Source: Fluviispira vulneris (GTDB taxonomy: Bacteria; Bdellovibrionota_B; Oligoflexia; Silvanigrellales; Silvanigrellaceae). From it: a stretch of 64,000 bases of DNA. Of this stretch, positions 1,558 through 21,334 are shown one piece after another; position 1 is the first letter of the stretch, and each line of letters opens with the position of its first letter. The DNA lies in NCBI RefSeq assembly GCF_014281055.1, contig NZ_JACRSE010000001.1, positions 186,001-250,000 on the forward strand, in the 5' to 3' direction. The notes beneath the pieces were generated by a model, which was not told where the DNA came from, did not search any database, and saw nothing but the letters and a program-made list of their open reading frames with translations. A program made the translations under genes and the position numbers.

Positions 1558-1754
1558 TTTTGTTCGCATCCTTTCTTAAAAAGGGAATGTGTCGCTGATT
1601 CCTTTTGATCGGAGATTTTTTCTATGCAAATGGATTATTGCACAATTGCTCTATTTGTGACATACTTCCTGCTTTGAATGGATGAATAAATTGTTTTATT
1701 AGCAAATGTTCTTCATGACTTTATAAGAAATAATAAGCTCAATTAAGGTGCAAA

Positions 1755-3267: not shown

Positions 3268-6261
3268 TTATTGAAAGCCTAAATCAAATATAATCTTTCC
3301 ACTCAAACCTATTTCATATTCTTTAGACAAAATATTTTCTGATTGTACAGGATTTAATCTATAAAATAGCCTTGCTTCTATAGCAAATTTATTATTTTGT
3401 TGAGTTAATTTTAATGCGCTTTCATAACCAAACTGTAGATTTGCAGGTGAAAATTGAACAGGCGCTGTCATCAAAGGGCCTGCTTCTACATGTGCGAATA
3501 GAGTATTGTACTTATAAAAGGTATAACTAGCTAGGACTTCAAATTTCTGAAAATTTCTTATAAGTGTATTAGCCTGATCGTAACCATCTGTTTGTAGTAA
3601 AACTTTTTCATGTAATGAATAATCATACATGATTTTCCAATTATCGTTTAAATCAAATTGCACACCTGCATTTGCATGAAACAGATAAAACTGTCTTTGA
3701 GAAAATACATATATGGGAGATTTTGTCATATCAAAATATGTTGCTCCTAAAGTAAAATGTGAGCGCAAATGATCTGTCCAGTTCTGTGTATGTTCAATTT
3801 GTGCATAGGGACTAGCAGAAGTATAAAATGTATCGTTGCTTCCATTATTTTGATTAGTCTCTTTTAAGGTGTAATAGGAAATACCATTCGTTATACCCAA
3901 AGAATTTGCTGTGTGTTTTCCAAAGAAAGAATTAATTTTTATTACATTTGATTCAAGAGATATCCCACCTTCATTTTTAGCTAGTAACATGTATGAATAG
4001 TTTTCTTGTGGGAGAATTTCTAAATCAGTATAATTATTTGTAGTAATATCTTCTGATATAGTGATAAAATCGTCATCTTTTTCTGATTTTCTTTTTAGAA
4101 TAAAATGCATATCTATATTTGTTTTTACAGAGTCCCATTGAAGATATATTTTATGCTCAATGAGTTCTGCATGAAAATTTGTCACTTTATCGGGGGGGCT
4201 GACAATAGTGATTTCAAATGAATCCTGAGAAATATGAGTCTCATCTACTGCTGATACAATATAATAATATCTCTGACCTTTTTTTGCATTGAAGTCTGTA
4301 ACTGATTTTTCAGTTAAATTATCCTGTATAATTTCGTAATTTTGCATACTCGATAGGCTTCGACTCAAGCGATATTTAATAGAATTATTTCCTTTGTCAA
4401 TATCCCAAGAAAGATGAATATTATTGTTCGTGTCGAGCTGAGCCCTAAAATTATAAGGGATAGGGGGTAAGGTATTTATTTTAATTTTGTTTGTGACAGT
4501 TGGCTTTATTTCGTCATCAATTATTTCAACATAATAGTAGTATGTACTGCCATTAAGTGCGGATTCATCAATGTAATTGCTTTCTGAAATATTATTTGCT
4601 ATTGTAACAAAATCCCTATTTTTATTTAGCGATCTTTTAACTCTATATTTTAATATTTTATTGCCAATATTTTTTGTCCAATTGAGTTTTACATTATTGT
4701 TTTCTATTTTACCAGTAAGAATTGGTTTTAAGTTTTTTGAGGAAATTTCAACTATATTTGAAAAAATATTTATTTCATTCTCATAATATATTTTGACTTT
4801 GTAATAGTATTTACTTCCTAGTGATATATTTTTATCTATATAAGCATTTTTTAAATAATTACTCACTATGACTTTAAATTTTTCCAACTCATTTTCTGAG
4901 CGAAGTATTTCATATTTAAATCCTTTAAAAATATTATTTGTGGACCAACTTAGATAAACTTTTCCATTATTCATAGTTGCTTTTAGGTGCGGTTGTTTCG
5001 GTTCAACAACTAAAGAGATTTCATTAGATTTAATTTTTTTCTCTTTTCCATAGTGCAAAATTACGGTATAAAAATACTGTGTTCCTGGTTGTAATTTGAT
5101 ATCTTCGTAATTATTTTTAGTTGTTAGTTTTTTTATTGTAAAATATGAGCTTTTACTTTTAATAGATCTTTTTATTTCATACATGTTTGAATATTCTTTA
5201 TTTTTTGTATCCCATGTGAGTTTTATGATGCCATTTTCAATTTTCCCTGTAAGTTGAATAGGTTGAATATCTATATTTGTAATATTTATATTGTTATATG
5301 CATTTTCATCATAATTTATTTTTGTTGGTTCATTGCTTTTATTTTCCAGAACACTCGCATTGTCTTTTTTATTATCCAAAAGACTCTCTTTGTCATTGCT
5401 ATTTTCCAGGTTATTCGTATTGTCTTTTCTGTTTTCTAATGCATCATTTTCGGAATTTTTATTATCTAATGATTTTCCATTATCAATAAATTCCATTTGG
5501 TTTTCGTTCTTTAGTTTAAGATTTAACTTTGAGTTCTCTCTACTTTTGTATAACTTTTCTAATTCAGCATAAGTATAAAAATTATTGGAGTTTTGGAAAA
5601 AATTCTTAGATAATTCTTTTGGCTTTTCTTTAAGAATTAATACAGATTTTTCATCTTTTTTCATTAAGTTAAGGGCTATTTTCATTGGAACATATAAGAG
5701 TATTTTTTCTCGTGGAAAGATAAGATCACCTTTTGTAATTCTTTTTTTAGGATTTAGTTCTATCGTAAAATTTAAAGATCCATAGGTACCATATATGGGG
5801 GTTGCATCTAATTTTTGCAGAAGCAAGCTTATCATATCACCATTTTTAACTGTATATATCAAGTAAACATATTCATCATTTCCTTTAAAATGGTTAAATT
5901 TTATTTTAAAATGTTCAATAGATTTTTTATATTCTGTATAGCTTACATTATCAGGTATTGATAATTCAAGGCTTTTAATTGGCAAAATAATTACATCATT
6001 TGGAAAAATAAGGTTGCCTTCTTCATGAATCGTTTCAGGATTAAGCTTAATTATCTCGGATAAATATCCTCTTTTTCCGTATATAGGAGTGAGTTTATTT
6101 TTTCTTAAAATAGATAGAACTGTGTCGCCCTCTTTAATTTTATATGTCGTATTATTTTTTTCTTGAGACAAACATATGCAAGATATTATTGATAATAATA
6201 ATATTAAAATTAAATTAAATAAATGTTTAATTCGCAAAGTATTTTGCTTTGCGCAGGTCAA
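3268..6261 (-). CDS. LysM x2 - FN3 x5 - C-terminal outer-membrane-barrel-like protein
   Basis: Multidomain envelope protein of about 997 residues. After a hydrophobic export signal come two LysM-like peptidoglycan-binding modules, each with an atypical insert: TPIYGKRGYLSEIIKLNP and TPIYGTYGSLNFTIELNP. Then follow an Asn/Lys/Glu-rich linker with 10-residue repeats, five fibronectin-III-like modules of about 85-90 residues (each with an L-x-W strand and a YYY/YFY strand), and about 210 residues of alternating aromatic strands ending FDLGFQ, read here as an outer-membrane barrel. Start choice: GGAGGA stands about 7 bases before TTG 6261, giving a normal signal peptide. An in-frame ATG at 6330 would add 23 residues without a comparable ribosome site. 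The signal ends SIISCICLSQ, so lipidation is possible but uncertain. It is divergent from the DsbA-like gene and is probably part of the same surface system. Confidence 0.75.
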   Translation of the reverse strand: MTCAKQNTLRIKHLFNLILILLLSIISCICLSQEKNNTTYKIKEGDTVLSILRKNKLTPIYGKRGYLSEIIKLNPETIHEEGNLIFPNDVIILPIKSLELSIPDNVSYTEYKKSIEHFKIKFNHFKGNDEYVYLIYTVKNGDMISLLLQKLDATPIYGTYGSLNFTIELNPKKRITKGDLIFPREKILLYVPMKIALNLMKKDEKSVLILKEKPKELSKNFFQNSNNFYTYAELEKLYKSRENSKLNLKLKNENQMEFIDNGKSLDNKNSENDALENRKDNTNNLENSNDKESLLDNKKDNASVLENKSNEPTKINYDENAYNNINITNIDIQPIQLTGKIENGIIKLTWDTKNKEYSNMYEIKRSIKSKSSYFTIKKLTTKNNYEDIKLQPGTQYFYTVILHYGKEKKIKSNEISLVVEPKQPHLKATMNNGKVYLSWSTNNIFKGFKYEILRSENELEKFKVIVSNYLKNAYIDKNISLGSKYYYKVKIYYENEINIFSNIVEISSKNLKPILTGKIENNNVKLNWTKNIGNKILKYRVKRSLNKNRDFVTIANNISESNYIDESALNGSTYYYYVEIIDDEIKPTVTNKIKINTLPPIPYNFRAQLDTNNNIHLSWDIDKGNNSIKYRLSRSLSSMQNYEIIQDNLTEKSVTDFNAKKGQRYYYIVSAVDETHISQDSFEITIVSPPDKVTNFHAELIEHKIYLQWDSVKTNIDMHFILKRKSEKDDDFITISEDITTNNYTDLEILPQENYSYMLLAKNEGGISLESNVIKINSFFGKHTANSLGITNGISYYTLKETNQNNGSNDTFYTSASPYAQIEHTQNWTDHLRSHFTLGATYFDMTKSPIYVFSQRQFYLFHANAGVQFDLNDNWKIMYDYSLHEKVLLQTDGYDQANTLIRNFQKFEVLASYTFYKYNTLFAHVEAGPLMTAPVQFSPANLQFGYESALKLTQQNNKFAIEARLFYRLNPVQSENILSKEYEIGLSGKIIFDLGFQ
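5329..5469 (-). repeat. 30-bp tandem coding repeats (10-residue Leu-Asx-Asn repeats)
   Basis: Within the LysM-FN3-barrel gene, about four and a half copies of a degenerate 30-base unit encode LDNKNSENDA, LENRKDNTNN, LENSNDKESL, LDNKKDNASV and LENKSNE. The unit starts with L-D/E-N and is strongly polar. It lies between the LysM modules and the FN3 modules and probably forms a flexible spacer whose length could vary between strains by slippage. Confidence 0.8.
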
Positions 6262-6418
6262 ATTGTCTTCCTCCAAAACTCTAAATTTATTCATATATTT
6301 CGGAATTTTTGATGCGTATTTGGTGGGCATTGTTTGTTAAAAAAAGAGGAGTTTTGACTAGGAATTTTTTGCATAAAACATGTCAAGATTTTGTTATATT
6401 TGCTCAAATTTATATTGA

Positions 6419-6424
6419 TATAAT
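6419..6424 (+). promoter_or_regulatory. Extended -10 promoter candidate for the DsbA-like gene
   Basis: TGATATAAT contains a perfect TATAAT (6419-6424) with the TGn extension at 6416-6418. It would start transcription about 27 bases before ATG 6458. No good -35 hexamer lies at 16-18 bases, consistent with an extended -10 promoter. The assignment rests on sequence only. Confidence 0.5.
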
Positions 6425-6457
6425 TATTAGAATAAAAAACAACTATGTGGAGAAAAC

Positions 6458-7546
6458 ATGGCTTTTTTAAAAAAATATATTTTACGAGTGCAGTATTTAA
6501 TTTTAATTCTTGGTTTTATAATAGGATTTATTACTCAAAAAATTTATGATGATTATAAAACAAGAATGAATAATAGAAGCTCATTTATTGAGGATAATTA
6601 TTTTGGAAAAAAAGTTTTTAAAGTTGATGGAAAAACTTGGACAACGACCTCATTGCCTTTAAATTCCCTGATAGAGTTAGAGAATTTAGAAAGTAATATT
6701 TTTAATGCTAGAAAAGAATTTTATGAAAAGACCGCTATGCTTATTGCGTTAGCAAATGATAATGAGAAACAGAGTGACTATGATAGTATCAAAAACTACG
6801 CTGATTTATTGAAAGTCTCCCAAGTTGATGAAGTTGAAGCAAAAAATTATTATGATGAGAATGTTCAAAAATATGGCCCTGCAGTTTTTTCTGGGCAAAA
6901 TTTTTCAGATCTTAAAAATCAATTAATTCAACAATTGACAGCAAAAAAAACCGCAGAAAAGTTAAAAGAAAAGTTAAAAGAATTTATTGCTAAAGAACGA
7001 ATCAAAATTTTTACCGACGACTCAAAGGAGAGCTTGATTGATGTAGATTTCTCTCTATATCCTACTCTTGGGAATTTAAATTCAAGTATAACAATTTCCT
7101 ACATTTTTGATTATGAAAATCCAAAAAGTTATGAGATGAATCAACGTATGAATGAGCTGGTCAAAAGATTTTCAGATAGAATAAAGTTTGTGTATATTCC
7201 TATAGCAAAATCTCTCAACGGCATGGGGGCAACCTTTACTAAGGGTGCCTATTGTATGCAAAAAATAGGTAACCACGCTTATTTTGCATACCATAACCGA
7301 TTAATGGAAACTCCAATTGAAACACTGAAGAAAAACTCCGAAGCAGCGCTTGTTCAAGTTGCTCAGTCTATCAATTTTTTAAAACCAAACTTTTTAAACT
7401 GTTTAAAAGAAAATAAAACCAATGAATTTCTCCATGGATTGCGCAATAATTTTTTGCATTCGCAGGAGTCGTTTTATTTAAATAGGAAATTATTACATAC
7501 AAATCTTAATGAACTCGAATATACATTAAAAAAGAAGTTATATTAG
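6458..7546 (+). CDS. Membrane-anchored DsbA-fold protein lacking the CXXC active site
   Basis: The 362-residue product has one N-terminal membrane anchor (YLILILGFIIGFITQ, about residues 13-28) and then a periplasmic body. Residues about 95-185 are helical and resemble the SurA/parvulin-type alpha-domain linker (SQVDEVEAKNYYDENVQKYG). Residues about 205-330 resemble the thioredoxin_4/DsbA fold: SSITISYIFDYENPKSYEMN, then KFVYIPIA, then GAYCMQKIGNHAYFAYHNRL. The position that normally carries CPxC reads ENPKS, so it cannot act as a dithiol oxidase. A chaperone or scaffold role is inference. GGAG precedes the ATG by 7 bases. It lies about 100 bases upstream of the giant lipoprotein gene on the same strand, which suggests that protein as its client. 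Confidence 0.7.
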   Translation: MAFLKKYILRVQYLILILGFIIGFITQKIYDDYKTRMNNRSSFIEDNYFGKKVFKVDGKTWTTTSLPLNSLIELENLESNIFNARKEFYEKTAMLIALANDNEKQSDYDSIKNYADLLKVSQVDEVEAKNYYDENVQKYGPAVFSGQNFSDLKNQLIQQLTAKKTAEKLKEKLKEFIAKERIKIFTDDSKESLIDVDFSLYPTLGNLNSSITISYIFDYENPKSYEMNQRMNELVKRFSDRIKFVYIPIAKSLNGMGATFTKGAYCMQKIGNHAYFAYHNRLMETPIETLKKNSEAALVQVAQSINFLKPNFLNCLKENKTNEFLHGLRNNFLHSQESFYLNRKLLHTNLNELEYTLKKKLY

Positions 7547-7644
7547 TTTTGTCATTCCAATGTCTTTATGCAAAAATTTCTATACAGATTTTTCATGATT
7601 TTATTTATTTTCAAGATAAATGAACTCGAGAAGGTCTGATTTTG

Positions 7645-10600
7645 ATGCGTTTACATATAAATTTCATAAAAATAATTTTTTTTTATACATTTGCTCAACT
7701 TTTTATTTTGGGCTGTAACTATAATCCGTTAGGGGGATCGCATTCAGATATTCAAAATGGTGATAACTATTTTTTAAATACTCCTTCATCATTTGATATA
7801 ACAGGTGTTCTTGTTTCTAATAATAAAATACAACTGGCATGGAGCTCATCGACCCGAGTAGATGATTATACTGTTTCTTATGGGACTTCTTCGGGAAATT
7901 ACTCTATCAATGCAAATAGCTGTACTGCGATTAAGCAAACAGTTTGCACGGTTGCAAACTTAACGAATGGGCAGATTCTATACATTAAAGTTTTTGCTCG
8001 AAATCGATATGGTAAAACAGCATCTAAAAGTGAAGCGGTTGCAACTCCTCAACCCTTTTCATTAAATGTTTTAAGCACTTCAAATGCGTCGATTATTAAA
8101 TGGATAGATGTTTCTGGCGGTCTTGGAAATACAACATACTCTCTTCAATACGGAACAAATTCTGCTTCACTCAATCAGTCCGTTGCATCCATATCAAATG
8201 CTTATTTATTAACTGGATTGCTCGATGGGAATACTTATTATTATACAGTAACAGCAACTAATCCAGCTGGCACAATAACAAGTCTTATGAGCTCTTCTCT
8301 TATAATCAATCCACCTTCAGCTCCTACTTTTGCAGGCGCACCATTGGTAAGCTCAAGTCAGGTGACATTAAATTGGAATGTAGCAGTAGGAGCAGGAACT
8401 CTACGTTATACTTTAGCAAAAAGTTCTAAGTCGGGTGGACCATATGAAAATGTTGCAACTTGCACACAAATAAATGCATTGACTTGTAGCGAAAGTGCAA
8501 GTTCTTTACTTGCAGGAAACTCCTATTATTATGTTGTTTATGCAACTAATGAAGGAGGTGACTCTCCTTTTTCAAGCGAAGCGATCGCTTTAACAATTCC
8601 TTCAATACCTACAGGTCTTAGTCTTTCTGCACCAAATAGTTCTACGAATAATCTTAGTTGGATGGGATCGAGTGGAAATGCAAATGTGACTTATAATATT
8701 TATCGTTCAACAGTAAGCCCTGTCGATACAAGCAATATTGCAAATAAAATAGCAAGTTTGAATTCCACGCAAATTGCACAAATTACAACTTATACTGACA
8801 GCGGCCCTTTTGTCGAAAATACGGTTTATTATTATGCATTAACTGCTTCGAATAGCAGTGGAACTTCGGGTGCTTCACAGCAAAAAAGTATAACTTCTGC
8901 ATTGCTTACAGCCTCGACTCTGACTTCTCCTTCAGTGACAAGTAGTAGTATTAATTTAAATTGGACGAGCGCTGCAGGAAATGCGAATGTTAATTATATA
9001 ATTTATCGCTCTCTGAGCAGTTCTGCAGGAAATTTGGGGAGCATAATTTATTCGAATACCCTGAGTGTGGGAGCAACTAAATCATATACTGACTCAGCAC
9101 TTTCAGAAAATACAAATTATTATTATACAATAATAGCAAATAATGATAGACCAAATTCTATAGGAATTCAGTCAGCTAAAACAACGATTATTACAAGTTT
9201 AGGGAGTCCGATTTCTTTAAGCTTACAATCTGTTACGACTTCATCCGCAAGTTTTAATTGGTCCATGGCTAATGGCAATTCGAGTGTAACTTATAGACTC
9301 TTTCGTTCTGCAACGAGTACAGTCAATACAACAATTGGAAATGAAATATATTCTTCAAATTCTGCTACAAGTTATACAGATACTTCTCTGTCTGCAAGTA
9401 CGAATTATTATTATGCAGTCACTGTCACAAATGGGCAAAATACGATTACATCTTCTCCAGCATTGCAAGTTGTTACTTTACCGAATACGCCTTCGGCTCC
9501 CACTGCTTCGGCAATCAATCGAGTTATTACATTGACTTGGGCACAAAGTCCTTCTGCAGGGAATGCTACTATTACTTATAACGTGCAAAGATATCGACTT
9601 GTAGGTGACACTCCTGTTGATGTGAGTGGCTGTCTAAATATTACCGATGCAAGTCGAACCTGTACGGACATTGTTCCGACTGCAGATGGACTGCCTTATT
9701 ATTATATTGTGAAAGCTGTTACTTTAGGTGGGAACTCTCCTTCTTATAGCGCTGCAAGTGTAGTCACCCCTGTGGCTCAATTTTCTTCATTTACGCCGAC
9801 AACGAATATTACAACATCTCCATCTGCGCAGATCACTTTGAACTGGAGTGGGGGTAGTGGTGCTACAAATTTCTTAGTGTATAGTTCTACAACTGCGGGT
9901 GGATCAGCACCACCTGCTGGCACAGCCACTACCTGCACAAGTACCCCATGTGTGCTTTCAGCAAGCGTAGGAAATATTTTTTATTACTCGTTGGTTGGAA
10001 GCAATACTGGCATTAATTCTACAGCTACAAGAACATCGAATGAAATTTCTGTAACAGTGAATGATACACCCATAACTTCTGTGGTAGCTCAAACATCGCA
10101 AGTGACTATTGGTTGGAGCAGTGTTCTTAACGCAACTAATTATAAGATTTATTATTCAACTTCATCAACTGCTGGAATAGCTGGTAAAACATTGGGTTGC
10201 GATGCGGGATTATCACTTTCCTGTACTGTGACAGGATTGACCAATGGCACTCAATACTATTTTGTCATTGCTATCACTCGATCTGTTGGTGGTACCTTTA
10301 TTGGTTCTGAGTTTTTAGCGACTCCCATAAGCTCATTTAGTATAACATCGCTTGCGTCAGCAAGTTCTACCTCAGCAAATATAACATGGGAATTAGCTTT
10401 GGGAGCAACGAGTTATGACATTAAATACGGAACAAGTTCTGGCAATTATTCAGAAGGAAATGTCTCAGTTGCGGCAAGTGTATCACAACCTTATTTAATC
10501 ACAGGATTGAGTGCAGGTTCTACTTATTATTTTATGGTAACAGCAAAAAATAATTCCGGAGCAGTTGATGCCATAAGTGAAGTACAACTGGTTCAACAAG

Positions 10601-13600
10601 TGGGAACCCCAACGGGTTTAAGCATAACTTCAGTTACAAAAAACTCTACAACGCTAAGTTGGAATATATTAACAGGTAATCCATTAACGACCTATAAAAT
10701 ATATCGCTCAGATATTAATTTAACTCCATTTGTAGCAAACCCAACTGCAGCAGTTTGTTCGGTTTCGTCTTTAACAAATACGAACACGTGTACAGATAGT
10801 GGTTTAAATGAAAATACAATTTATTATTATGTTATTTCTGCGTTGAATTCAGCTGGAGAATCAGCTGTCTCAACCCCCGCAGTTCAAGGAATCACTTCAC
10901 TTAACACAGCACCAACGAACTTATTCGTATCGAATGTAAATATAAATTCTGCTACGCTGAATTGGAATTTTAACCAAGGAAATGCTCCTGTTATATATAA
11001 TCTTTATCAATCAACGACAGGTGCGAATGGTTCGTGGGGCTCGGCTATCTATACAGGAAATAATCTCTCGACTTCAAGTACAGGTTTGTCAGAAAATACG
11101 ACTTATTATTATAAAGTTTCAGCAAAAAACAGTGCGTTGAATGCGACCGAGCAATTTTCTCCAGTTATTAATTTCACAACCGCATTACAGACTGCACCTA
11201 TTATAAATTCAGTGACAAATATAACGAATAACTCTGCAACGATAAATTGGTCATTGAGTGCTGGAACCGCACCGGTGACTTATAATTTATATCGATCTTT
11301 AACAAGCAATCCGAGCAATTGGGGCAGTCCAATCTTTACGGGAACCGGTTTGAGCTTTTCAGATAGCGGTCTTTCTGAAAATACAAATTATTATTACATG
11401 GTTTCGGCAACCAATAATGCTCCAGGAGCTATGGGAATTAATTCCAATGAATTTCAGATGAGTACGAAAATACAAAATCCTCCTGTAATTTCTGTTACTA
11501 ATGTAACTGACACTTCTGTTTCGTTGAAATGGACGAGTGTGCTCGGAAGCAATTCTGTAACTTATAAATTGTATCGTTCGACAGTACCAGGAGTGGTTGC
11601 AAATGGAGTTTTATTAGCAACAAACCCTTCAAATAATGTTTATACAGATACAACCGTAACAGATAGTAAAATTTATTATTATGTTGTTACTGCAACAAAT
11701 TCTCAAAATACTGTTACATCAACGCCTGAAACGCAGATCGTTACTTTACCAAAGATACCAAATTCACCTACTATTTCTGCTACAGGAAATACTGTTACTT
11801 TAAATTGGGTATCCAACTCGACTGGGAATGCATCAATAACATATAGTGTGAGTCGATCTCGTTCGGCTGCAAGTGGTTATGCACCTGTTAGCGGGTGTAC
11901 AAATATATCAAATCCATTAACCTGTGTTGATACCGTAAGTGCAGATGGTGCTGCTTTTTATTATACAATTTCGGCATCAAATTCAAATGGCAGTTCACTC
12001 TCTGCAAGTTCGCCAACTTCAGTTATTCCAATAACTGCGATCAGTTCTATAAATATATCAACGACAACAACACAAATTAATCTAGCATGGTCAGGAGGAT
12101 CTGGTGCGACAGGTTTTAAGGTTTATCAGTCATTGGTTGCCAATCAATCTTCTCCAAATAATTCTGGTACAGTCACCGCTTGCACTGCATCACCCTGTTC
12201 GTTTGCAGGGACTGCCAATCAAACCGTTTATTATACGATTGTTGGAAATAATACAGGAGTGAACTCCACTGCTCAAACTTTATCAGCTGAGGTCAGTGGA
12301 ACACCATTGAGCTCTGCGAACTTAATGGTTTCTGCAGGTTCATCGCAGGTAACTGTTTTATGGGACAATACAATTGCAAATGCAACAAACTTTAAAGTCT
12401 ATTATTCAACTGTACCCGGACAAGCATTATCTTCTGGTACTTTAGGTTGTGATGCGCTTTTAGGAAGTTCGTGTGTGATCAGTGGACTGACAAATGGTCA
12501 AGTTTATTATTTTGCATTATTAGTCACCCGTTCTGTTGGGGGGAATTTTCAAAGCACAGAAGTAACAGGGATACCCATTTCTACATTTTCAATTATTTCT
12601 ATTTCACCGACAGTTAATTCTGCAACTGTCACCTGGGGAAGTGCAGCAGGTGCGAATTCATATGATATCAGTTATGGCACAAGTTCTTTGCTATATACTA
12701 CAACTGTTACAGTAACTCCTGGAGCAGGCTCAACACAGTCTAGTCTTATTACCTCGTTGAATCCTGGAACCCAGTATTTCTTTACAGTAACGGCAAAAAA
12801 TGCCAATGGCTCTGTAATGGCAAATGCAGAAATGTCCACTGTGACAACACCAAACGCCCCTGCAAATATAAAGATCATAAGTTTAGGTTATAATAGTGCA
12901 ACAATTCAAGTAAATAATAATTTTGCAAATGTTGGGACGACTTATAAAATTTATCACTCAACCCAAAGTGGATTTAATACTTCCGATAATACGGCCGTTT
13001 TTGGCTGCTTTGCTTATGTGAATTCAGCAAGCCCCACAACATTATCGTGCGTGGATAATACAGGAATTGTTCAAAATACAAAATATTATTTTAAAGCAAT
13101 TGCAATAACAGATGCAATCGGAGGGAATTCAAGTCAAACTTCTGCTGACTCGAACGTAATAAGTGCAACTACCCAATTTGATCCAGCGAGTTCTTTTATT
13201 GTATCAGTATCTAACGTAACTGATAAAACTCTAACTTTGAGCTGGACACTTAGTGTGGGTAGTGAAAATATTACGTATACTGTTTTTCAATCTGATATTG
13301 CAAATGCTAGTGTTACTGGTGCTGCAATAAACTGTTCTCCTGCAATCACACCGACGGCTCCAGGAGCATTAAATACCTGTAACGTAACAGGATTATCAGA
13401 GAATAAAAATTATTATTTTGCTGTGACTGCATCGAATAATGCACCTAATCCAGCAAGTATTCTATTAACACCTGACGCATCTGCTACAACTCCTTTTTCT
13501 TCAACAACGAATCTAGCAATTACCTCTTCAAATGTTACAGGGACAAGTATCACTCTCAATTGGTTATTTAATATTGGCAACAGTCCTGTTAATTTCATAA

Positions 13601-16050
13601 TTAAACAAAATGGAAGTGCTGTAAATGCAGCGAACATATCGGGGTGTTCACTCAATAACGTAACAGCATCAAGCACGCAAATTTCTTGTATCGTTTCTGC
13701 ATTAACCGAAAATACAAATTATTCATTTGTAGTGCAGGCTACTAATAACGCAACAGGCGGAAGTTCTACGATTAGTTCGAATACACTTTCTTTGCCAACA
13801 TTACCAATAACAATTCCTTCAGGATTAAGTTTATCGATTCCAAGTGTAGGAAATATTCAAGCTCAATGGAATGCATATGCCGCTGGAAATGTGAATGTAA
13901 CTTATTTGGTTTATGCTTCGACAAATTCTTCAGTTGCTATAACATCTTCTAATTTATTTTGCACTGTTTTACCAAATAACGCTGTTCGAACTTCCTGTAC
14001 GAACAATCAAGTACAAAGTCTTAGTTTAGTCGTTGGCACAGTTTATTATTTTGTTATTGTAGCAAGTAATTCTTCTGGAAATTCATCACCTTCAAGTCCA
14101 TCGACAAGTTTTAAGTATGATGCTCCACAAATTACGGCTTCTCCAACAATAACAAATGGACCTGCTTCTGGTTCTGGAATTGTATCTGGCTCTGGTGTTT
14201 CTTTAGTTGGAAATATTGGTACGTGGACTGATACGAGTAATTGTACTTATCAATTTTATGCAAATATGATTGCCATTTCTGGCGCAACGGGTTCAATTAG
14301 TGCAACAAATCCAAACGTAACATATGTGACGACTAGCTCAGATATTTGTAAAATTATTTCCTTCAGTGTAACATGTACAAATCCAATATCATCAAACACT
14401 GCGTATAATTCTTCTCCTGATAACAGTGTTGGAATAAACACAACAGCAATTCTTAGTGATTATTCAAATCGAGTCAGTTTGATTGGTGGAAACACCTTAA
14501 ATATAACTGGGAAAAATCAAATAAAAAGCTTCATAAATCAAATTATAACCAATAAAATCCCTATACCCGATGTTTTTTATCCTTTGCTTGCAAGTCAAAA
14601 TGCAGGAATTGGGACAAAAATTTTTGATTTATATTGTGACCTGCATAATGGTACCATAGCATCTGGATTGACTTGGGATAATACAGGAGGAATAATTTCC
14701 AATTCATCAGGTCTAGCAACAATCCCAAGTTTATTTAGTAGCAGTTCATCAACATTAATAGCAGTAGCACGAAGTCCTACAACGACAGCAAATGATAGAG
14801 GTATAATTGGCTATACAGGATCTTCTACAAATAATAGTTTTGGCTATGGTGGAAACTTCTCATCAATTAAATTTGAAAATTTCTCCTCTAATCCTTCTGT
14901 GATAAGTTATCCATTTGCACCTTCTCGATTTGATTATTGGGCTGTTTCTTTAAATGGCACTTCCTTGAATATGCAAGTAAATGAATTTCAACATACAGAT
15001 ACATCGTCATCCACAAAAAATGGAGGATTAATTTTAGGATCTTTTAACAATACAGCTGGAACAGGTTTGCAAGATTATATGGCTATGGCAGCAGCTTGGA
15101 CTACTAATGCATTTAGTCTTTTAAATATGGAAACTGTCAGAAGAGCATTTCAATCTACATTAGGTTCATCTTTACAAAATTATCCGAAATTTATGTATAT
15201 AGGCAATAGTCAAACAACAAAAGCAAATATATGCAATATTCTGAGCGATGGCTCATTATCTGGATGTGTGGCGGGAACTCCAACATTTGTTACACCTGTT
15301 GGAACAGCGCGTTACAATAATTTTTTATATGTAACAAATAATTCCAGCGCAGGAATTTCTGTCTGTGTAATCAATCAAGTTACAGGTGCAATGACATCTC
15401 CTTGCACTTCAGTAACAACAGCGATGCCAACTTCATCTTATGGTGTTACGATAAGTAAAGGATTAAATTCTGTTTACTTATATGTTGGGGGTGTAACGAC
15501 AGTCACTAAATGTACGATTAATACAAGCACTGGGGCATTAACTAGTTGCACTGCAACTACGTTAGTTGGTATGCAGGTACAAGGTCTGTCATATGTTTAT
15601 TTAAACACTCCATATCTTTATGTTACCAACAGAAGTGGAAATGCTATTAATAAATGCAGTATTAATACTGCAACCGGAAATATTATCACTCCTTGCACTC
15701 CCTACGGTGGAATTGGATTGGGGGGGCCTACTGGAATAGCTGTATTTAATAATTATATGTATATTGCCAATGCAGGTTCAAATGCAGTTGTTAAATGCAC
15801 TGTGAACGTGAGTGATGGTTCGTTAACGAGTTGCGGCATAGCGACAAGTTCAACTGTGAATCCTCCTTCCTCAGGTTCATATAGTAGCACTGAGGGAGTT
15901 GCTATTATAAATGACACATTATATATAGCAAATTGGGGAAGCAATACAGTCATTAAATGCAAAATATCCATCACTGATGGATCTTTAAGTGGTTGTTTAT
16001 CTACAGGCTCGGGAGTGGCATTTTCTGGGCCAATTGGTATGAGTTTTTGA
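7645..16050 (+). CDS. Giant surface lipoprotein: 22 FN3-like modules, Ig-like, lectin-like and Cys-paired propeller regions
   Basis: The product has 2,801 residues. The signal peptide ends in a lipobox, LFILGC, with the acylated Cys near residue 24. I count 22 consecutive FN3-like modules (to about residue 2160), each with a W in strand B and a YYY-x-V-x-A-x-N strand; many have a Cys pair. Then come an Ig-like segment (about 2160-2265), a LamG/concanavalin-like region (about 2270-2515), and six propeller-type repeats of the form K-C-x-I-N-x-x-x-G-x-L-x-x-C separated by LYVTN/MYIAN strands, to the C-terminus. It is probably an outer-membrane-anchored adhesin or stalk. An ATG at 7645 and a TTG at 7642 are both 8-11 bases from GAGAAGG; ATG is preferred. 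Codon use is Thr/Ser/Asn-rich throughout. Its stop lies 8 bases from the convergent LysM gene. Binding target unknown. Confidence 0.8.
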   Translation: MRLHINFIKIIFFYTFAQLFILGCNYNPLGGSHSDIQNGDNYFLNTPSSFDITGVLVSNNKIQLAWSSSTRVDDYTVSYGTSSGNYSINANSCTAIKQTVCTVANLTNGQILYIKVFARNRYGKTASKSEAVATPQPFSLNVLSTSNASIIKWIDVSGGLGNTTYSLQYGTNSASLNQSVASISNAYLLTGLLDGNTYYYTVTATNPAGTITSLMSSSLIINPPSAPTFAGAPLVSSSQVTLNWNVAVGAGTLRYTLAKSSKSGGPYENVATCTQINALTCSESASSLLAGNSYYYVVYATNEGGDSPFSSEAIALTIPSIPTGLSLSAPNSSTNNLSWMGSSGNANVTYNIYRSTVSPVDTSNIANKIASLNSTQIAQITTYTDSGPFVENTVYYYALTASNSSGTSGASQQKSITSALLTASTLTSPSVTSSSINLNWTSAAGNANVNYIIYRSLSSSAGNLGSIIYSNTLSVGATKSYTDSALSENTNYYYTIIANNDRPNSIGIQSAKTTIITSLGSPISLSLQSVTTSSASFNWSMANGNSSVTYRLFRSATSTVNTTIGNEIYSSNSATSYTDTSLSASTNYYYAVTVTNGQNTITSSPALQVVTLPNTPSAPTASAINRVITLTWAQSPSAGNATITYNVQRYRLVGDTPVDVSGCLNITDASRTCTDIVPTADGLPYYYIVKAVTLGGNSPSYSAASVVTPVAQFSSFTPTTNITTSPSAQITLNWSGGSGATNFLVYSSTTAGGSAPPAGTATTCTSTPCVLSASVGNIFYYSLVGSNTGINSTATRTSNEISVTVNDTPITSVVAQTSQVTIGWSSVLNATNYKIYYSTSSTAGIAGKTLGCDAGLSLSCTVTGLTNGTQYYFVIAITRSVGGTFIGSEFLATPISSFSITSLASASSTSANITWELALGATSYDIKYGTSSGNYSEGNVSVAASVSQPYLITGLSAGSTYYFMVTAKNNSGAVDAISEVQLVQQVGTPTGLSITSVTKNSTTLSWNILTGNPLTTYKIYRSDINLTPFVANPTAAVCSVSSLTNTNTCTDSGLNENTIYYYVISALNSAGESAVSTPAVQGITSLNTAPTNLFVSNVNINSATLNWNFNQGNAPVIYNLYQSTTGANGSWGSAIYTGNNLSTSSTGLSENTTYYYKVSAKNSALNATEQFSPVINFTTALQTAPIINSVTNITNNSATINWSLSAGTAPVTYNLYRSLTSNPSNWGSPIFTGTGLSFSDSGLSENTNYYYMVSATNNAPGAMGINSNEFQMSTKIQNPPVISVTNVTDTSVSLKWTSVLGSNSVTYKLYRSTVPGVVANGVLLATNPSNNVYTDTTVTDSKIYYYVVTATNSQNTVTSTPETQIVTLPKIPNSPTISATGNTVTLNWVSNSTGNASITYSVSRSRSAASGYAPVSGCTNISNPLTCVDTVSADGAAFYYTISASNSNGSSLSASSPTSVIPITAISSINISTTTTQINLAWSGGSGATGFKVYQSLVANQSSPNNSGTVTACTASPCSFAGTANQTVYYTIVGNNTGVNSTAQTLSAEVSGTPLSSANLMVSAGSSQVTVLWDNTIANATNFKVYYSTVPGQALSSGTLGCDALLGSSCVISGLTNGQVYYFALLVTRSVGGNFQSTEVTGIPISTFSIISISPTVNSATVTWGSAAGANSYDISYGTSSLLYTTTVTVTPGAGSTQSSLITSLNPGTQYFFTVTAKNANGSVMANAEMSTVTTPNAPANIKIISLGYNSATIQVNNNFANVGTTYKIYHSTQSGFNTSDNTAVFGCFAYVNSASPTTLSCVDNTGIVQNTKYYFKAIAITDAIGGNSSQTSADSNVISATTQFDPASSFIVSVSNVTDKTLTLSWTLSVGSENITYTVFQSDIANASVTGAAINCSPAITPTAPGALNTCNVTGLSENKNYYFAVTASNNAPNPASILLTPDASATTPFSSTTNLAITSSNVTGTSITLNWLFNIGNSPVNFIIKQNGSAVNAANISGCSLNNVTASSTQISCIVSALTENTNYSFVVQATNNATGGSSTISSNTLSLPTLPITIPSGLSLSIPSVGNIQAQWNAYAAGNVNVTYLVYASTNSSVAITSSNLFCTVLPNNAVRTSCTNNQVQSLSLVVGTVYYFVIVASNSSGNSSPSSPSTSFKYDAPQITASPTITNGPASGSGIVSGSGVSLVGNIGTWTDTSNCTYQFYANMIAISGATGSISATNPNVTYVTTSSDICKIISFSVTCTNPISSNTAYNSSPDNSVGINTTAILSDYSNRVSLIGGNTLNITGKNQIKSFINQIITNKIPIPDVFYPLLASQNAGIGTKIFDLYCDLHNGTIASGLTWDNTGGIISNSSGLATIPSLFSSSSSTLIAVARSPTTTANDRGIIGYTGSSTNNSFGYGGNFSSIKFENFSSNPSVISYPFAPSRFDYWAVSLNGTSLNMQVNEFQHTDTSSSTKNGGLILGSFNNTAGTGLQDYMAMAAAWTTNAFSLLNMETVRRAFQSTLGSSLQNYPKFMYIGNSQTTKANICNILSDGSLSGCVAGTPTFVTPVGTARYNNFLYVTNNSSAGISVCVINQVTGAMTSPCTSVTTAMPTSSYGVTISKGLNSVYLYVGGVTTVTKCTINTSTGALTSCTATTLVGMQVQGLSYVYLNTPYLYVTNRSGNAINKCSINTATGNIITPCTPYGGIGLGGPTGIAVFNNYMYIANAGSNAVVKCTVNVSDGSLTSCGIATSSTVNPPSSGSYSSTEGVAIINDTLYIANWGSNTVIKCKISITDGSLSGCLSTGSGVAFSGPIGMSF
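9205..10605 (+). repeat. FN3 five-module block A (modules 6-10)
   Basis: This block encodes five FN3-like modules whose order and signatures recur at 11476-12855. Shared signatures are NGQNTITS...QVVTLPNTP, GNATITYNVQR, NWSGGSGATNF with TCTSTPC and GSNTGINSTA, LGCDAGLSLSC with TRSVGG, and SYDIKYGTSS. The period between the two blocks is eight modules. Divergence is high, so the duplication is old. Confidence 0.75.
11476..12855 (+). repeat. FN3 five-module block B (modules 14-18)
   Basis: Second copy of the five-module block at 9205-10605. Corresponding signatures are NSQNTVTS...QIVTLPKIP, GNASITYSVSR, AWSGGSGATGF with ACTASPC and GNNTGVNSTA, LGCDALLGSSC with TRSVGG, and SYDISYGTSS. Cysteine positions match block A module by module. 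Confidence 0.75.
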
Positions 16051-16058
16051 TATCTAAA

Positions 16059-18119
16059 TTAAGGTAACTCTCCAAAAAATTTAAATAGAATACCTATCTC
16101 AGTGTAATCGAATTTTACTGGAGGCACATAAGTATAATCTCTTAGGTAAAAAAGCTTCGTTTTAAAACCCCAACCTTTATCATTATATGACTGTACAAGT
16201 CCTAATTCATAACCTTGTCCAATATATGCATTATAAACTTCATTCGTAAATGGTGTGCTGAGTAAATAACTTAATTCCGATTGAAATGACAACTTATCAT
16301 AACTTAGGAAAGTATAGCCAATTGTGCTGCGCAAAAGTGTTGTGGACATTTTTTCAACTTGTAGCGTTGTATCATTTATTGAGCGAAAAACTACAAAATC
16401 TCCATAAGATAATTGAAAATTTCCATATAAATTTGGATAAAAATTATATTTTATACCAGCAAGAATATTTGTTAATCTTAGAATACTATCACCGATGACA
16501 ACATTTGTATCGGATTGCATTATTTGTGTTACTGATAAATTTATTCCAAAGTATGTTTCCAAATCTTTATTCCAGCGTTGAGTTAAACCAATTTCAGTAA
16601 AAATTATTGGGCGAGATAGAAGAGTTGATGTTAAATTATTATCTGTATTTTCGCCTTTAAGGCGTAGATATTTAACTCCCAATTCTGAATAAAAAAGATT
16701 AGGGTTTTCTTCAAAATTTTTATTTTTTTCAAGTTCAATTGTATTATCAGAAGCAAGCAATTTTTTTTCTTTATTATTGACAGTTGTTGGCATATTTGGC
16801 AGACATATGGTAGTGCCTTTTTCTAAGAATGCATTATCAAATGCAAGATTTTTATTGAGTTCTATGGTTTTCTGGTAAGATCCATTTTCACCAAAAAGAG
16901 GAATCATATTTTTTTTTCTTAAAATATGTATTATATTTTCTTCTTTCTCTGTTGTATATTTATCGCATTGTTGAATTTCAGCTTGGACTGCAGGATTGAT
17001 ATCTTCTTTATCAATTTTTTTCTTGTTTTTCTCAGGTTTTATTTTTGTATTTCTTTTTTTTTCTGCAAATTTTGCTATGGGTATATTTTTATCACTTAGT
17101 TTTTCTATTATTTTCTCTTTCTCCTCAATTTTCATAGGTGATCTTGTTTGCTCTGTTTCTGATACATCTACATTCGTTTGATGGTCTTGATTTTGTTTAA
17201 TTTCTTCTTCTAAATCTTCATTATTTGGGTTATTATATTTATCTTTAGAATCAATTTTATCATTATTTTTAGTAATGACTTTATCTTTAGAATCAATATT
17301 TTTATCTGTGTTTTTTCCATCATCCTCTGTGGGCAAAACAATAGGTAAAGAAGAATCTAAATGTAATATTTCTTCAGTCATTTTTTTATTTTCTTTAAGA
17401 ATGTCTTCATTTTTCTCTTGATTATCAGCTTTGTTATCTGCTAAATTATAATTATTTGTTTTGTCTGGTAGGCAGAGTGAATTTCCAGGACGAATAAGAT
17501 ATCCTTTTTTTCCCTCACGCTTATTTATTTTTAGGGTTTTTTGTAAACTGCCATTTTTGCCAAAGATCGGTCTTAGTTTATGGGTTTTTAGAATTTGGAT
17601 AATTGTATCACCATTTTTAACAGTATATGTAGTACATTTGTTATTGAATTTATTGTCAATTTCTTTATTGTTGTTATGTTTTTCTATTTCTAATTTTTGA
17701 GTTAAATTTTCCTTTTCTGCATCATTATTTAATGCATCCATATTAGAATTTTCATCTGTTTTTTTACTCACTTTAACATTATCTTTATCATTAACTATCT
17801 GCTTATTAAAGTCTTTTGGAAATCGTATACGAATTGGCAAGCATAACTTATCTCCCGCATGGATGAGTTCTTTTCGAGTTTTTTTATCCAAATTATTTAT
17901 TTCATAAGTTTTTTGCAGTGAGCCTTCTTTGCCGAAAACTGGGATGAGTGAGTTTTTTCTGAGTATTTGAATTATTGTTTCTTTATCTTTCACTTCATAT
18001 TGAGTGCATTGAGAATTTTCGGCGAAATTACTTTCAGCAAAAGCATGCAATTTAAATGAAAAAGAAATAAATAGAATAATATAAATAATTAATTTGTAGA
18101 AACTCAAATAAATATGCAC
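16059..18119 (-). CDS. Triple-LysM outer-membrane-barrel-like protein
   Basis: The 686-residue product has a signal peptide (residues about 1-29). Three LysM-like modules lie at about 38-95, 162-218 and 385-441. Each carries the same atypical insert (IPVFGKEGSLQKT, RPIFGKNGSLQKT, IPLFGENGSYQKT) and each is bracketed by a Cys pair (C38/C93, C162/C216, C385/C439) that could form one disulfide per module. The modules are separated by long Lys/Glu/Asn-rich linkers. The last 210 residues alternate aromatic and polar residues (YGNFQLSYGDFVVF, TTLLRSTIGYTFLSY, GFKTKLFYLRDY) and end GILFKFFGELP, as in barrels. The start is GTG with GGAG about 11 bases upstream. It is a sister of the 3268-6261 protein and lies convergent to the giant lipoprotein. 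An OmpA-like tether between wall and outer membrane is inference. Confidence 0.75.
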   Translation of the reverse strand: MHIYLSFYKLIIYIILFISFSFKLHAFAESNFAENSQCTQYEVKDKETIIQILRKNSLIPVFGKEGSLQKTYEINNLDKKTRKELIHAGDKLCLPIRIRFPKDFNKQIVNDKDNVKVSKKTDENSNMDALNNDAEKENLTQKLEIEKHNNNKEIDNKFNNKCTTYTVKNGDTIIQILKTHKLRPIFGKNGSLQKTLKINKREGKKGYLIRPGNSLCLPDKTNNYNLADNKADNQEKNEDILKENKKMTEEILHLDSSLPIVLPTEDDGKNTDKNIDSKDKVITKNNDKIDSKDKYNNPNNEDLEEEIKQNQDHQTNVDVSETEQTRSPMKIEEKEKIIEKLSDKNIPIAKFAEKKRNTKIKPEKNKKKIDKEDINPAVQAEIQQCDKYTTEKEENIIHILRKKNMIPLFGENGSYQKTIELNKNLAFDNAFLEKGTTICLPNMPTTVNNKEKKLLASDNTIELEKNKNFEENPNLFYSELGVKYLRLKGENTDNNLTSTLLSRPIIFTEIGLTQRWNKDLETYFGINLSVTQIMQSDTNVVIGDSILRLTNILAGIKYNFYPNLYGNFQLSYGDFVVFRSINDTTLQVEKMSTTLLRSTIGYTFLSYDKLSFQSELSYLLSTPFTNEVYNAYIGQGYELGLVQSYNDKGWGFKTKLFYLRDYTYVPPVKFDYTEIGILFKFFGELP

Positions 18120-18246: not shown

Positions 18247-21200
18247 TTAAGATTCTTCTTTTTCATTTTTTAGTTTTTTCAAGTGTATATTTTGCTTTGC
18301 TAAATATGTGTACATAGTTGGTACGACAAAGAGCGTAAATAAGGTACCAATTGTCAGTCCAGATGCTATAACAATTCCGATATCATGCCTGCTTGCAGCA
18401 CCTGCACCAGAAGCAATTATAAGAGGTATTACAGCTAAAACCATTGCGGCCGTTGTCATCAGTATTGGGCGTAAGCGAATTGAAGCTGCCTTTTCAATTG
18501 CTGTGCGAATGTCATAATTTTGCTCAAGACGCAATTGATTGGCGAATTCAACCATTAAAATCCCATGTTTCGTTATAAGACCAATAAGTGTAATAAGACC
18601 AATTTCTGTATAGATATTAATGGTAGCAAAACCTAAATTAAGTGGTATAAGTGCACCGCAAATTGCCATAGGCACACTGATCATGATGATAAGTGGATCT
18701 CTAAAACTTTCAAACTGAGCAGACAAAACTAGAAAAATAATGATCAAAGCAAAACCAAAAGTGAGAATCAGTGCATTTCCTTCCTGCTGTTCTGTTCTAG
18801 AATCACCAGAAAAATCGTAAGTCATCCCATAGGGCATAATTTTATCAGCAGCCTTTTTTAAAAAAGCAATACCTGTTGAAGTTGTTTGTCCTGGCATCAT
18901 GACGGCAGAAAATGTAGCAGAGTTGAGTTGCTGAAATTGATTTAGTGAATTGGGTTCAGAGCTGATATTAAAATTAATAAAGTTTGATAACGGAACAAAT
19001 GATCCAGAATTATTTTTTATATAAGTTTTCTTAAGATCAGAAGGATTGTAGCGATCATTATCTGCTAATTGAGGAATTATTTTATAACTTCTTCCGTCCA
19101 TGCTGAAAAGATTAGTATAATTACCACCTAAAAATGTCGATAATTGTTGGCCTATTTGCTGCATAGATATATTTCCATCAGCTGCTTTCGATTTGTCGAT
19201 TGCGATATTTAATTGTGGAGTTTCAAAACTCAAATCACTATCAACAACTATAAAAAGTCCGCTTTTTTTTGCAATAGCCTTTAGTTCTTCCATGACTAAA
19301 TAAATATTTGTGTAATTATCTGTTGATTTAAGTACCATTTGCAAAGGAAATCCTGAGCTACCTGTTGGCAAATCAGGTAAAGCAAAGATAAACGCTTTTA
19401 TACCTGATATTTCATTCAAATCATTTTGGATAATTGTTTGCAAATCTTTAGCACTTCTTTGTCGTTCACTCCATGGTTTGAATACAAATCCTGCAAAAGC
19501 ATCGGTTTCACTGCCTCTGCCATTTGCAATAAAGTGAGCTGCTCGTTCTGGATATTTACTAAATATATTATTGATTTGATCTGTGTATTTTTCTAAATAT
19601 CGGATATTTGCGTATTTTGGTGCTGTCGCAATTGTTAATAAAAATCCTTGATCTTCCTGCGGAGCAAGCTGCTTAGGTGTTAAAATAAAAAGAAAGAAAA
19701 CGCTGATAAGTACAACTCCTCCAAATAAAAGGACCACAGGTCTAAAATTTAGTATAGATTTTAATTTTTTTTCATAAAAATTTTGGAGATCAGTAAACTT
19801 ATGATCTATCCAATGGGCAAAGCCTTTGCTTGTGTCACCAGTTGTTAAAATTTTAGAACACATCATGGGCGATAATGTTAATGCAATCACACCTGAAACG
19901 ATGACTGAAGCAGCTAAAGTTAAAGCAAATTCTTTAAATAGCGCACCCGTTAACCCACCCATTAATCCGATAGGTGCATACACTGCACTGAGGGTGATGG
20001 TCATTGTTATAACCGGTAATGCTATTTCTTTTGCACCGATCAAAGAGGCTTCAAATGCATTTTTTCCTTCTTCTAAATGACGCTGGATATTTTCTACGAC
20101 AACGATGGCATCATCAACAACCAGTCCAATTGCTAGAACCATGGATAAAAGTGTGAGTAAATTAATTGTATATCCAAGTAAAAACATTATGGAACAGACA
20201 CCGACAAGAGAAAGCGGAATCGTTATAATTGGGATTATGACAGAGCGGAGTGAGCCTAAGAATAAGAAAATAACAATTATGACAATAATTGTTGCTTCAC
20301 CAAGAGTTTTAATAACATCTTTAATTGACGCTGAAATAAATTCTGTTGAGTCATACACAACGACTTGATTGAGAGAAGGGGGGAGTGATTTTAAAATATC
20401 TGGTAATATTTTTCTTACATCTTGCACAACGGTCAGGGGATTTGCTGTTGGAACAGAATTGACTCCAATAAAAACTCCTTTTTTCCCATTGAAAGTAACA
20501 GAAGAAGAATAGTTTTCTGAACCCAGTTCAACTTCTGAAATATTTCGCATCCGTATGAGTTTACCTTTTGTTTCTTTAACCACGAGATTGTTAAATTCTT
20601 CTACACTGTGTAAATCAGTTTCTGCTTTTATATTTGTGATGGTATATTGTCCTTTGAGCTGACCTGCCGCAGATAAATAACTATTTGATGTGAGAGCTTT
20701 ATTCACATCATCTGCAGTGATATTTAATGCTGCCATTTTGTCAGGTTGTAACCAAATGCGCATTGCAAAAGGATTTCCTCCAAGAATATCTGCACTGGCG
20801 ACACCTGATACAGATTGAATATTGGGTTGAACGATTCGAGTTAAAACGTCATATATTTGCTGACTCGATATTTTATCACTAGAATAACTTATATAAAGTA
20901 ACGCAATTGAGCTTCCAGTTGTTTTTGTGATAACTGGATTATTCGCATCTCGAGGTAATTGTCCTGTCACTGCATTTACTTTTGCTAAAATGTCAGCAAA
21001 TGCAGTTGCGGAATTAAAATTTAATTTTAAATGTGCTTGAATTGTGCTCACACCTTGGCTGCTCGTTGAATTTATATAATCGATCCCATCAGCCGATGCA
21101 ATGGAAGTTTGAAGCGGTTGAGTAATAAATCCCTGCATAAGTTGTGCATTGGCACCGGGATAAGTTGTCGTTACTGTTATCACAGTGTTTTCAACTTTAG

Positions 21201-21312: not shown

Positions 21313-21334
21313 TTTATTCCTCTGCACATAAAAT

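Follow-up and report, generated by a model that had tools for sequence, protein, structure and literature searches.

A candidate lineage-specific envelope module around a giant FN3 lipoprotein in Fluviispira vulneris

We analyzed a window of 64,000 nucleotides from the genome of Fluviispira vulneris (G000:C1:186001-250000), which contains at window positions 3268-18119 four envelope genes, here termed LFB, TRX, GIANT, and LB. We tentatively propose, as a serious possibility that falls short of a probable one, that these genes constitute a single envelope module, specific to this lineage, for making and anchoring a giant FN3 fiber. The four open reading frames (ORFs) are located at the positions given in a preliminary description of this DNA. 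LFB (3268..6330, minus strand; 1020 aa) has a predicted signal peptide, two LysM, five FN3, and a C-terminal outer-membrane barrel. TRX (6458..7546, plus strand; 362 aa) is predicted to be membrane- or signal-anchored and consists of a helical N-terminal part followed by a DsbA-fold domain without CXXC. GIANT (7645..16050, plus strand) is a predicted lipoprotein with 22 FN3, a conserved C-terminal region, and a six-bladed propeller; its ORF opens at 7642/7645, and its 2801 aa are counted from the ATG at 7645. LB (16059..18119, minus strand; 686 aa) has a predicted signal peptide, three LysM, and a C-terminal outer-membrane barrel. The block is a clear envelope module that can be put to experimental test, and it belongs to a poorly studied group whose members include a parasite of Daphnia as well as human clinical isolates.

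Conservation of the four genes as a block

Seven well-assembled genomes of the genus (Silvanigrellales) were compared, namely, F. vulneris (G000), Fluviispira multicolorata (G005), a metagenome-assembled genome of Spirobacillus cienkowskii (G004), and the genomes G002, G003, G006, and G007, the last being assembled as one 2.81-Mb contig. An eighth genome of the genus, G001, has an assembly of 1.5 Mb that is 72% complete. Stretches of 36 to 84 kb around LFB-type genes were retrieved from G002 to G007, and their ORFs were called and then clustered. Each of these six genomes has an LFB-type protein adjoining an oppositely oriented giant FN3 ORF. In 7/7 genomes, F. multicolorata and S. cienkowskii among them, the genes are arranged as LFB(-) TRX(+) GIANT(+) LB(-) or in the mirror image of this arrangement. 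The block occurs in two unrelated chromosomal settings: in F. vulneris and F. multicolorata it is located between the asparaginyl-tRNA synthetase (AsnRS) gene and a resistance-nodulation-division (RND) pump, whereas the other five genomes (G002, G003, G004, G006, and G007) have a different flanking gene set. When the stretch of F. vulneris was compared by reciprocal best matches with those of G002, G003, G006, and G007, the only near full-length pairs were the four block genes and one XerC/D-like recombinase, the number of repeats being variable in LFB, LB, and GIANT. The block has thus remained intact while its neighborhood changed. As judged from these genomes, the four genes behave as one unit, and the view of the preliminary description that they form a single apparatus is well supported by synteny; their homologs are not scattered independently across genomes, as would be expected of unrelated genes. 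The RND pump genes (18247-22435) were considered as a further part of the unit and dropped, since they adjoin the block only in F. vulneris and F. multicolorata. The recombinase gene (28823-29797, minus strand) is about 10 kb from the block, which may be a coincidence or a trace of mobility.

LFB, TRX, and LB diverged at a common rate, which exceeded that of housekeeping neighbors. Between F. vulneris and F. multicolorata, the sequence identity is 53% for LFB, 53% for TRX, 52% for LB, and 73% for GIANT, and the neighbors AsnRS, AcrB, HlyD, SucA, and a CheY-like protein share 81 to 89%. The corresponding values for G002 and G003 are 76%, 74%, 73%, and 87%. In the close pair G004 and G007 the situation is reversed, with GIANT being the most divergent protein (89% versus 95 to 98%). 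The equal pace of LFB, TRX, and LB fits the idea of mutually fitting parts, seven genomes being too few for a formal test.

Profile searches covered 58 genomes of the class, which also constitute the phylum-wide set. The profile of the LB barrel matched 7 of the 58 genomes, all in the genus; there was no match in G001 or in any of the 50 genomes outside the genus. Likewise, the C-terminal 560 residues of GIANT, taken as a whole, matched only the seven cluster giants (0/50 genomes outside the genus), and the propeller part alone also matched smaller proteins of the genus. Beyond the phylum, one low-sensitivity scan with a single short peptide pattern retrieved only F. multicolorata and S. cienkowskii, a weak test of absence elsewhere. 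LB had no plasmid match. No description of the four-gene set was found in the literature searched, which is consistent with the earlier view of the system as a candidate for an undescribed one. The block combines known domains in a new manner, and an anchored giant surface fiber is an already known kind of structure. The best reading of these data is that the module is lineage-specific.

Domain composition of the four proteins

The barrel assignment is based primarily on LB, whose last 225 residues were modeled with ten long strands (predicted local distance difference test [pLDDT], 73; predicted template modeling score, 0.69), the barrel corresponding to positions 16062..16709 (minus strand). 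The fold search with this barrel identified OpcA as the best match (E value, 7e-7; template modeling [TM] score, 0.58 to 0.60), and the rest of the 50 matches listed were outer-membrane barrels or barrel-machinery entries, with some autotransporter barrels lower down. The three LysM of LB (16770..18008, minus strand) start at aa 38, 162, and 385 and are connected by low-complexity linkers; the segment aa 165-218 is over the Pfam cut-off. In LFB, two LysM-like repeats (5692..6147, minus strand; aa 62-117 and 158-213) are followed by five FN3 (3934..5283, minus strand; aa 350-799), detected with a lineage-trained FN3 model and by Pfam (3.6e-13) and considered a probable periplasmic spacer, and by a C-terminal barrel domain of about 220 aa (3271..3930, minus strand). 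Since the LysM and the barrel of LFB (Pfam OMP_b-brl, 18.8 versus 28.7 bits) are both below the curated Pfam cut-offs, these two assignments rest on comparisons: the LysM of LFB match those of LB within the same genome with an E value of 7e-10, and the alignment of both barrels with hhalign has a probability of 99.7 (E value, 1.2e-26; 212 columns). In the barrel tree, the LFB and LB types form two clades (support, 100/100). The LFB and LB barrels are paralogous and of a predicted 10-strand type, so that the C-terminal barrels proposed previously were recovered by modeling for LB and by homology for LFB. A role as a pore, which had also been suggested, is not supported, a 10-strand barrel being narrow and the best match OpcA being an adhesin.

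In even-stranded outer-membrane barrels both termini are periplasmic. The LysM arms, together with the FN3 of LFB, should therefore lie in the periplasm, and cell wall binding by LysM, as postulated earlier, would fit this predicted topology provided that the barrels are even-stranded. A second, unlinked locus in G002, G003, and G006 (L025:18198-19220, where the gene pair runs past the right edge of L025; L028:8521-11060; and L035:742-3171) again contains one barrel of each clade side by side, namely, LFB2 with LysM, two FN3, and a barrel and LB2 with a barrel only, lacking LysM. Because one member of each clade is kept there as well, LFB and LB appear to work as a pair that represents a stable sub-unit.

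Two further links had been noted between the proteins. The FN3 link between LFB and GIANT was substantiated, GIANT being the only FN3 protein of the genome that LFB matches. The LysM style common to LFB and LB (PIYGKxGSL) does exist, but it occurs throughout the lineage and by itself is no proof of co-evolution; it was discarded as such, since a similar form is present in an unlinked 335-aa LysM protein and in family-level LysM proteins without barrels. This 335-aa protein (G000:C1:482165-482410; L094:6136-7143) shares the LysM style, and its C terminus is conserved and rich in Cys; it is also found in F. multicolorata, with similar proteins in G002, G006, and G007. In G003, a protein of 440 aa (L041:8467-9786) has two LysM and a C-terminal region resembling a different barrel and may represent a further LysM-barrel type.

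GIANT was described previously as a 2,801-residue lipoprotein. Its length was confirmed, and the lipobox of a type II signal peptide, with Cys at +1, is present in 7/7 giants (aligned by eye); judging from this conserved lipobox, GIANT is a lipoprotein. The lipid-attachment Cys opens the strictly conserved motif C-[ND]-[YF]-N-P-L-G-G (7714..7737, plus strand), and the linker from this motif to the first FN3 is strongly conserved. The lineage-trained model detected an array of 22 FN3 (7771..14109, plus strand), as compared to 5 in LFB. Pfam FN3 covered 14 stretches of GIANT (1.9e-69), and no other protein of the genome has Pfam FN3 matches at an E value of ≤1e-4. The number of FN3 varies from 22 (F. 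vulneris and F. multicolorata) to 28 (G004 and G007), 34 (G006), and 38 (G002 and G003), and the number of Cys in GIANT ranges from 43 to 83. With a length of 3.5 to 4 nm per FN3 domain, these counts would correspond to a rod of roughly 80 to 150 nm. The array is followed by a region (14368..15186, plus strand) that is conserved in seven relatives and was modeled with low confidence (pLDDT, ~30); a LamG fold in this segment, suggested by resemblance by eye only, is not claimed, the model being unusable. The C-terminal end is a predicted six-bladed, Cys-rich beta-propeller (15187..16047, plus strand; pLDDT, ~80) of the YWTD/lactonase type, with six four-strand blades and the last strand closing the first. 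Foldseek retrieved the YWTD propellers of LRP6 and LDLR as well as bacterial lactonases, so that the propeller recognized earlier is backed by the fold search. The Pfam Lactonase match is below the cut-off in the GIANT of the window and reaches 5e-7 in the best-matching relative.

TRX belongs to a DsbA/Thioredoxin_4 family that is present in 56/58 genomes of the class, mostly in at least 2 copies. Its fold was assigned through relatives, which match PF13462 and solved DsbA-like chains; the housekeeping copy with CXXC has clear Thioredoxin_4 and DsbA matches. We aligned the cluster copies with paralogs from the genus, the family, and the class. In TRX, N-P-K-S (aa 221-224; 7118..7129, plus strand) takes the place of the CXXC active site. 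CXXC is absent in all eight copies of the clade, seven of which are cluster copies and one an additional copy of G006, and present in all other paralogs aligned. In the altered site (N/D/E-x-K-S), N, D, or E replaces the first Cys and Ser the second, the Ser being preceded by Lys; two other family-conserved Cys are kept. Because the eight CXXC-less copies group in a single clade (100/100), with the CXXC copies of the genus itself as neighbors, TRX is, as judged from its sequence, a duplicate of a housekeeping DsbA-like protein that arose within the lineage and lost catalysis. Of the earlier assignment as a DsbA-fold protein, the fold is thus confirmed via the relatives, and a functional oxidoreductase is contradicted by the missing CXXC. 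We infer that TRX acts as a noncatalytic chaperone or escort for GIANT. A catalytically dead DsbA paralog apparently recruited to one giant client would make the concept of a pseudo-oxidoreductase as a dedicated chaperone testable. The extra copy of G006 (L099:12469-18624) has as neighbors a propeller-type lipoprotein rich in Cys and a protein of 456 aa, the latter being barrel-like by eye and without a Pfam match; this set may represent another, smaller system of this type.

The divergent genes LFB and TRX are separated by 127 bp (6331..6457), a likely control site for both transcripts, for which a promoter scan gave a score at the level of shuffled sequence. GIANT and LB are convergent, with a gap of 8 bp. 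Elsewhere in the window, a 280-aa protein (727-1569, minus strand) has a predicted signal peptide, is barrel-like by eye, and shares about 72% identity with its F. multicolorata counterpart; it has no Pfam or NCBIfam match.

Proposed mechanism and alternative readings

In the fiber model, GIANT would be made as a lipoprotein, and its Cys-rich FN3 array would be held in the periplasm by the dedicated TRX, which may bind clients like a DsbA/SurA-type protein without oxidizing them, the housekeeping CXXC paralog supplying the disulfides. LFB and LB would insert into the outer membrane as small closed barrels, and their periplasmic LysM arms, together with the FN3 of LFB, would grip peptidoglycan to form a two-protein tie between the outer membrane and the wall at the base of the fiber. 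GIANT, lipid-anchored in the outer membrane beside the barrel pair, would project outward with its propeller tip as the binding head. With such a fiber, the cell would most likely attach itself to surfaces, to prey, or to host tissue. Surface display of GIANT and the function of the module are both inferred. Within this lineage, the module is a candidate determinant of surface attachment or, alternatively, of the unusual coiled cell form.

A number of points argue against this proposal. (i) The placement of GIANT is its weakest step. In 7/7 giants, the lipid Cys is followed at +2 by N or D. In Escherichia coli, Asp at this position keeps lipoproteins in the inner membrane, a rule that is not established for this phylum; N/D in the giants could mean retention inside the cell. 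(ii) The cluster has no translocator gene, and folded FN3 are too wide to pass through 10-strand barrels. (iii) The LB barrel was modeled from a three-sequence alignment, and the other four barrel models were worse; the Pfam LysM match, over the cut-off in LB (1.1e-8), is below it in LFB (16.2 versus 20.9 bits). (iv) There is no giant adjoining the second LFB/LB locus, so the pair can serve without one. (v) A propeller and a rod do not prove adhesion.

Because of the uncertain placement of GIANT and the N/D at +2 in all seven giants, we retained an alternative in which GIANT is a long periplasmic FN3 belt along the wall, tied by the LysM-barrel pair, that shapes the coiled cell. CrvA, reportedly a periplasmic curvature filament, serves as a model for such a scaffold. 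The periplasmic location of the LysM and FN3 arms, expected if the barrels are even-stranded, and the lack of an exporter gene in the cluster are in agreement with it. The organisms that carry the module are red, coiled freshwater bacteria; a coiled cell form has been reported for them, and the module is restricted to a group known for having coiled or helical cells (PMC12321486). On the other hand, a receptor-type propeller head and 22 to 38 FN3 are typical of surface proteins, and the number of FN3 varies widely between species. We also know of no shape gene that looks like the GIANT module. We consider a periplasmic scaffold unlikely. More improbable still is its most specific form, in which an FN3 belt of tens to more than 100 nm, with a LysM-barrel clamp and assembled by the dead DsbA paralog, adds to the coiled form of the Silvanigrellales; if true, this would represent a novel type of device for shaping cells.

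The barrel pair might also be a display device, the lipid end of GIANT being threaded or handed through LFB/LB during assembly, as for RcsF with OmpA. The lipoprotein gene always adjoins two barrel genes, conservation is strong in the C-[ND]-[YF]-N-P-L-G-G motif and in the linker that leads to the first FN3, and RcsF-OmpA complexes are reported in E. coli (PMC7553776). This idea is weakened by the second LFB/LB locus, which has no adjoining giant; we regard it as doubtful, to the same degree as the scaffold.

Another possibility is that the barrel of LFB exports its own LysM/FN3 arm in an autotransporter-like manner, the LysM tip binding foreign N-acetylglucosamine polymers such as crustacean chitin or prey peptidoglycan. 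An N-terminal passenger with a C-terminal barrel is the arrangement of autotransporters, LysM can have chitin as a ligand besides peptidoglycan, and some autotransporter barrels are present lower in the fold list. In addition, S. cienkowskii, a relative, infects Daphnia (PMC12321486). Nevertheless, this reading is disfavored because an even strand number places both ends on the periplasmic side; moreover, there are 10 strands versus 12, the model lacks a pore helix, no autotransporter Pfam match was obtained, and the best fold match is OpcA, so that we consider it distinctly improbable. Least plausible is that four envelope genes without common function are neighbors by chance: the convergent and divergent genes, which form no single operon, and the lineage-wide LysM style would permit it, but it is already disfavored by the conservation of the block in 7/7 genomes, across two unrelated settings that have almost nothing else in common, and by the matched divergence rates of LFB, TRX, and LB.

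Comparison with known systems

Several secretion and adhesion systems share individual features with the block. (i) Inverse autotransporters (intimin/invasin, type Ve) have, in common with the block, an N-terminal LysM, an outer-membrane barrel, and Ig-like/FN3 domains. The N-terminal LysM of many type Ve members is found in LB by Pfam, with LFB remaining below the cut-off. In LFB and LB, however, the barrel forms the last ~210 to 220 residues instead of preceding a passenger, has 10 predicted strands (LB model of moderate confidence; pLDDT, 73) instead of 12, and in LFB follows FN3 on what is probably the periplasmic side; GIANT is a separate lipoprotein. Classical autotransporters (type Va) are not indicated either, since no beta-domain Pfam match was found in the window proteins and no pore helix in the LB model. 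(ii) The SprB/SprF system of Bacteroidota (type IX secretion) reportedly comprises a giant repeat adhesin adjoining an outer-membrane barrel protein. The likeness to the block is one of function only: there is no PorP/SprF-type Pfam match here, and GIANT is a lipoprotein. (iii) As in type XI secretion (Slam, DUF560), barrel genes are located beside a lipoprotein gene, recognized in GIANT by its lipobox. In contrast, LFB and LB of the window have no DUF560 or TPR Pfam match, 10 predicted strands, and the form of two barrels with LysM arms. (iv) OpcA, a 10-strand adhesin of Neisseria and the best match of the LB barrel, resembles it in fold only, with about 10% identity and no LysM or FN3 arm. 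(v) Both the FN3 array and the beta-propeller of FN3/propeller surface adhesins are found in GIANT, its surface exposure and adhesion being putative.

TRX has the DsbA/Thioredoxin_4 fold, the two conserved Cys outside the active site, and the N-terminal extension of the housekeeping paralog, and differs from it in the active-site CXXC, which is changed to N/D/E-x-K-S in every cluster copy. OmpA/Pal tethers provide a parallel for the barrel pair, since LFB and LB likewise combine an outer-membrane part, the predicted barrel, with a putatively peptidoglycan-binding part predicted to be periplasmic. No Pfam match to the OmpA C-terminal peptidoglycan-binding domain was found in LFB or LB; LysM stands in its place, and the order is reversed, with LysM first and the barrel last. 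The long FN3 spacer of LFB and the conserved pairing beside a giant lipoprotein are further differences. LFB and LB would represent a tether between outer membrane and wall in which the OmpA-like layout is reversed and which occurs in conserved pairs.

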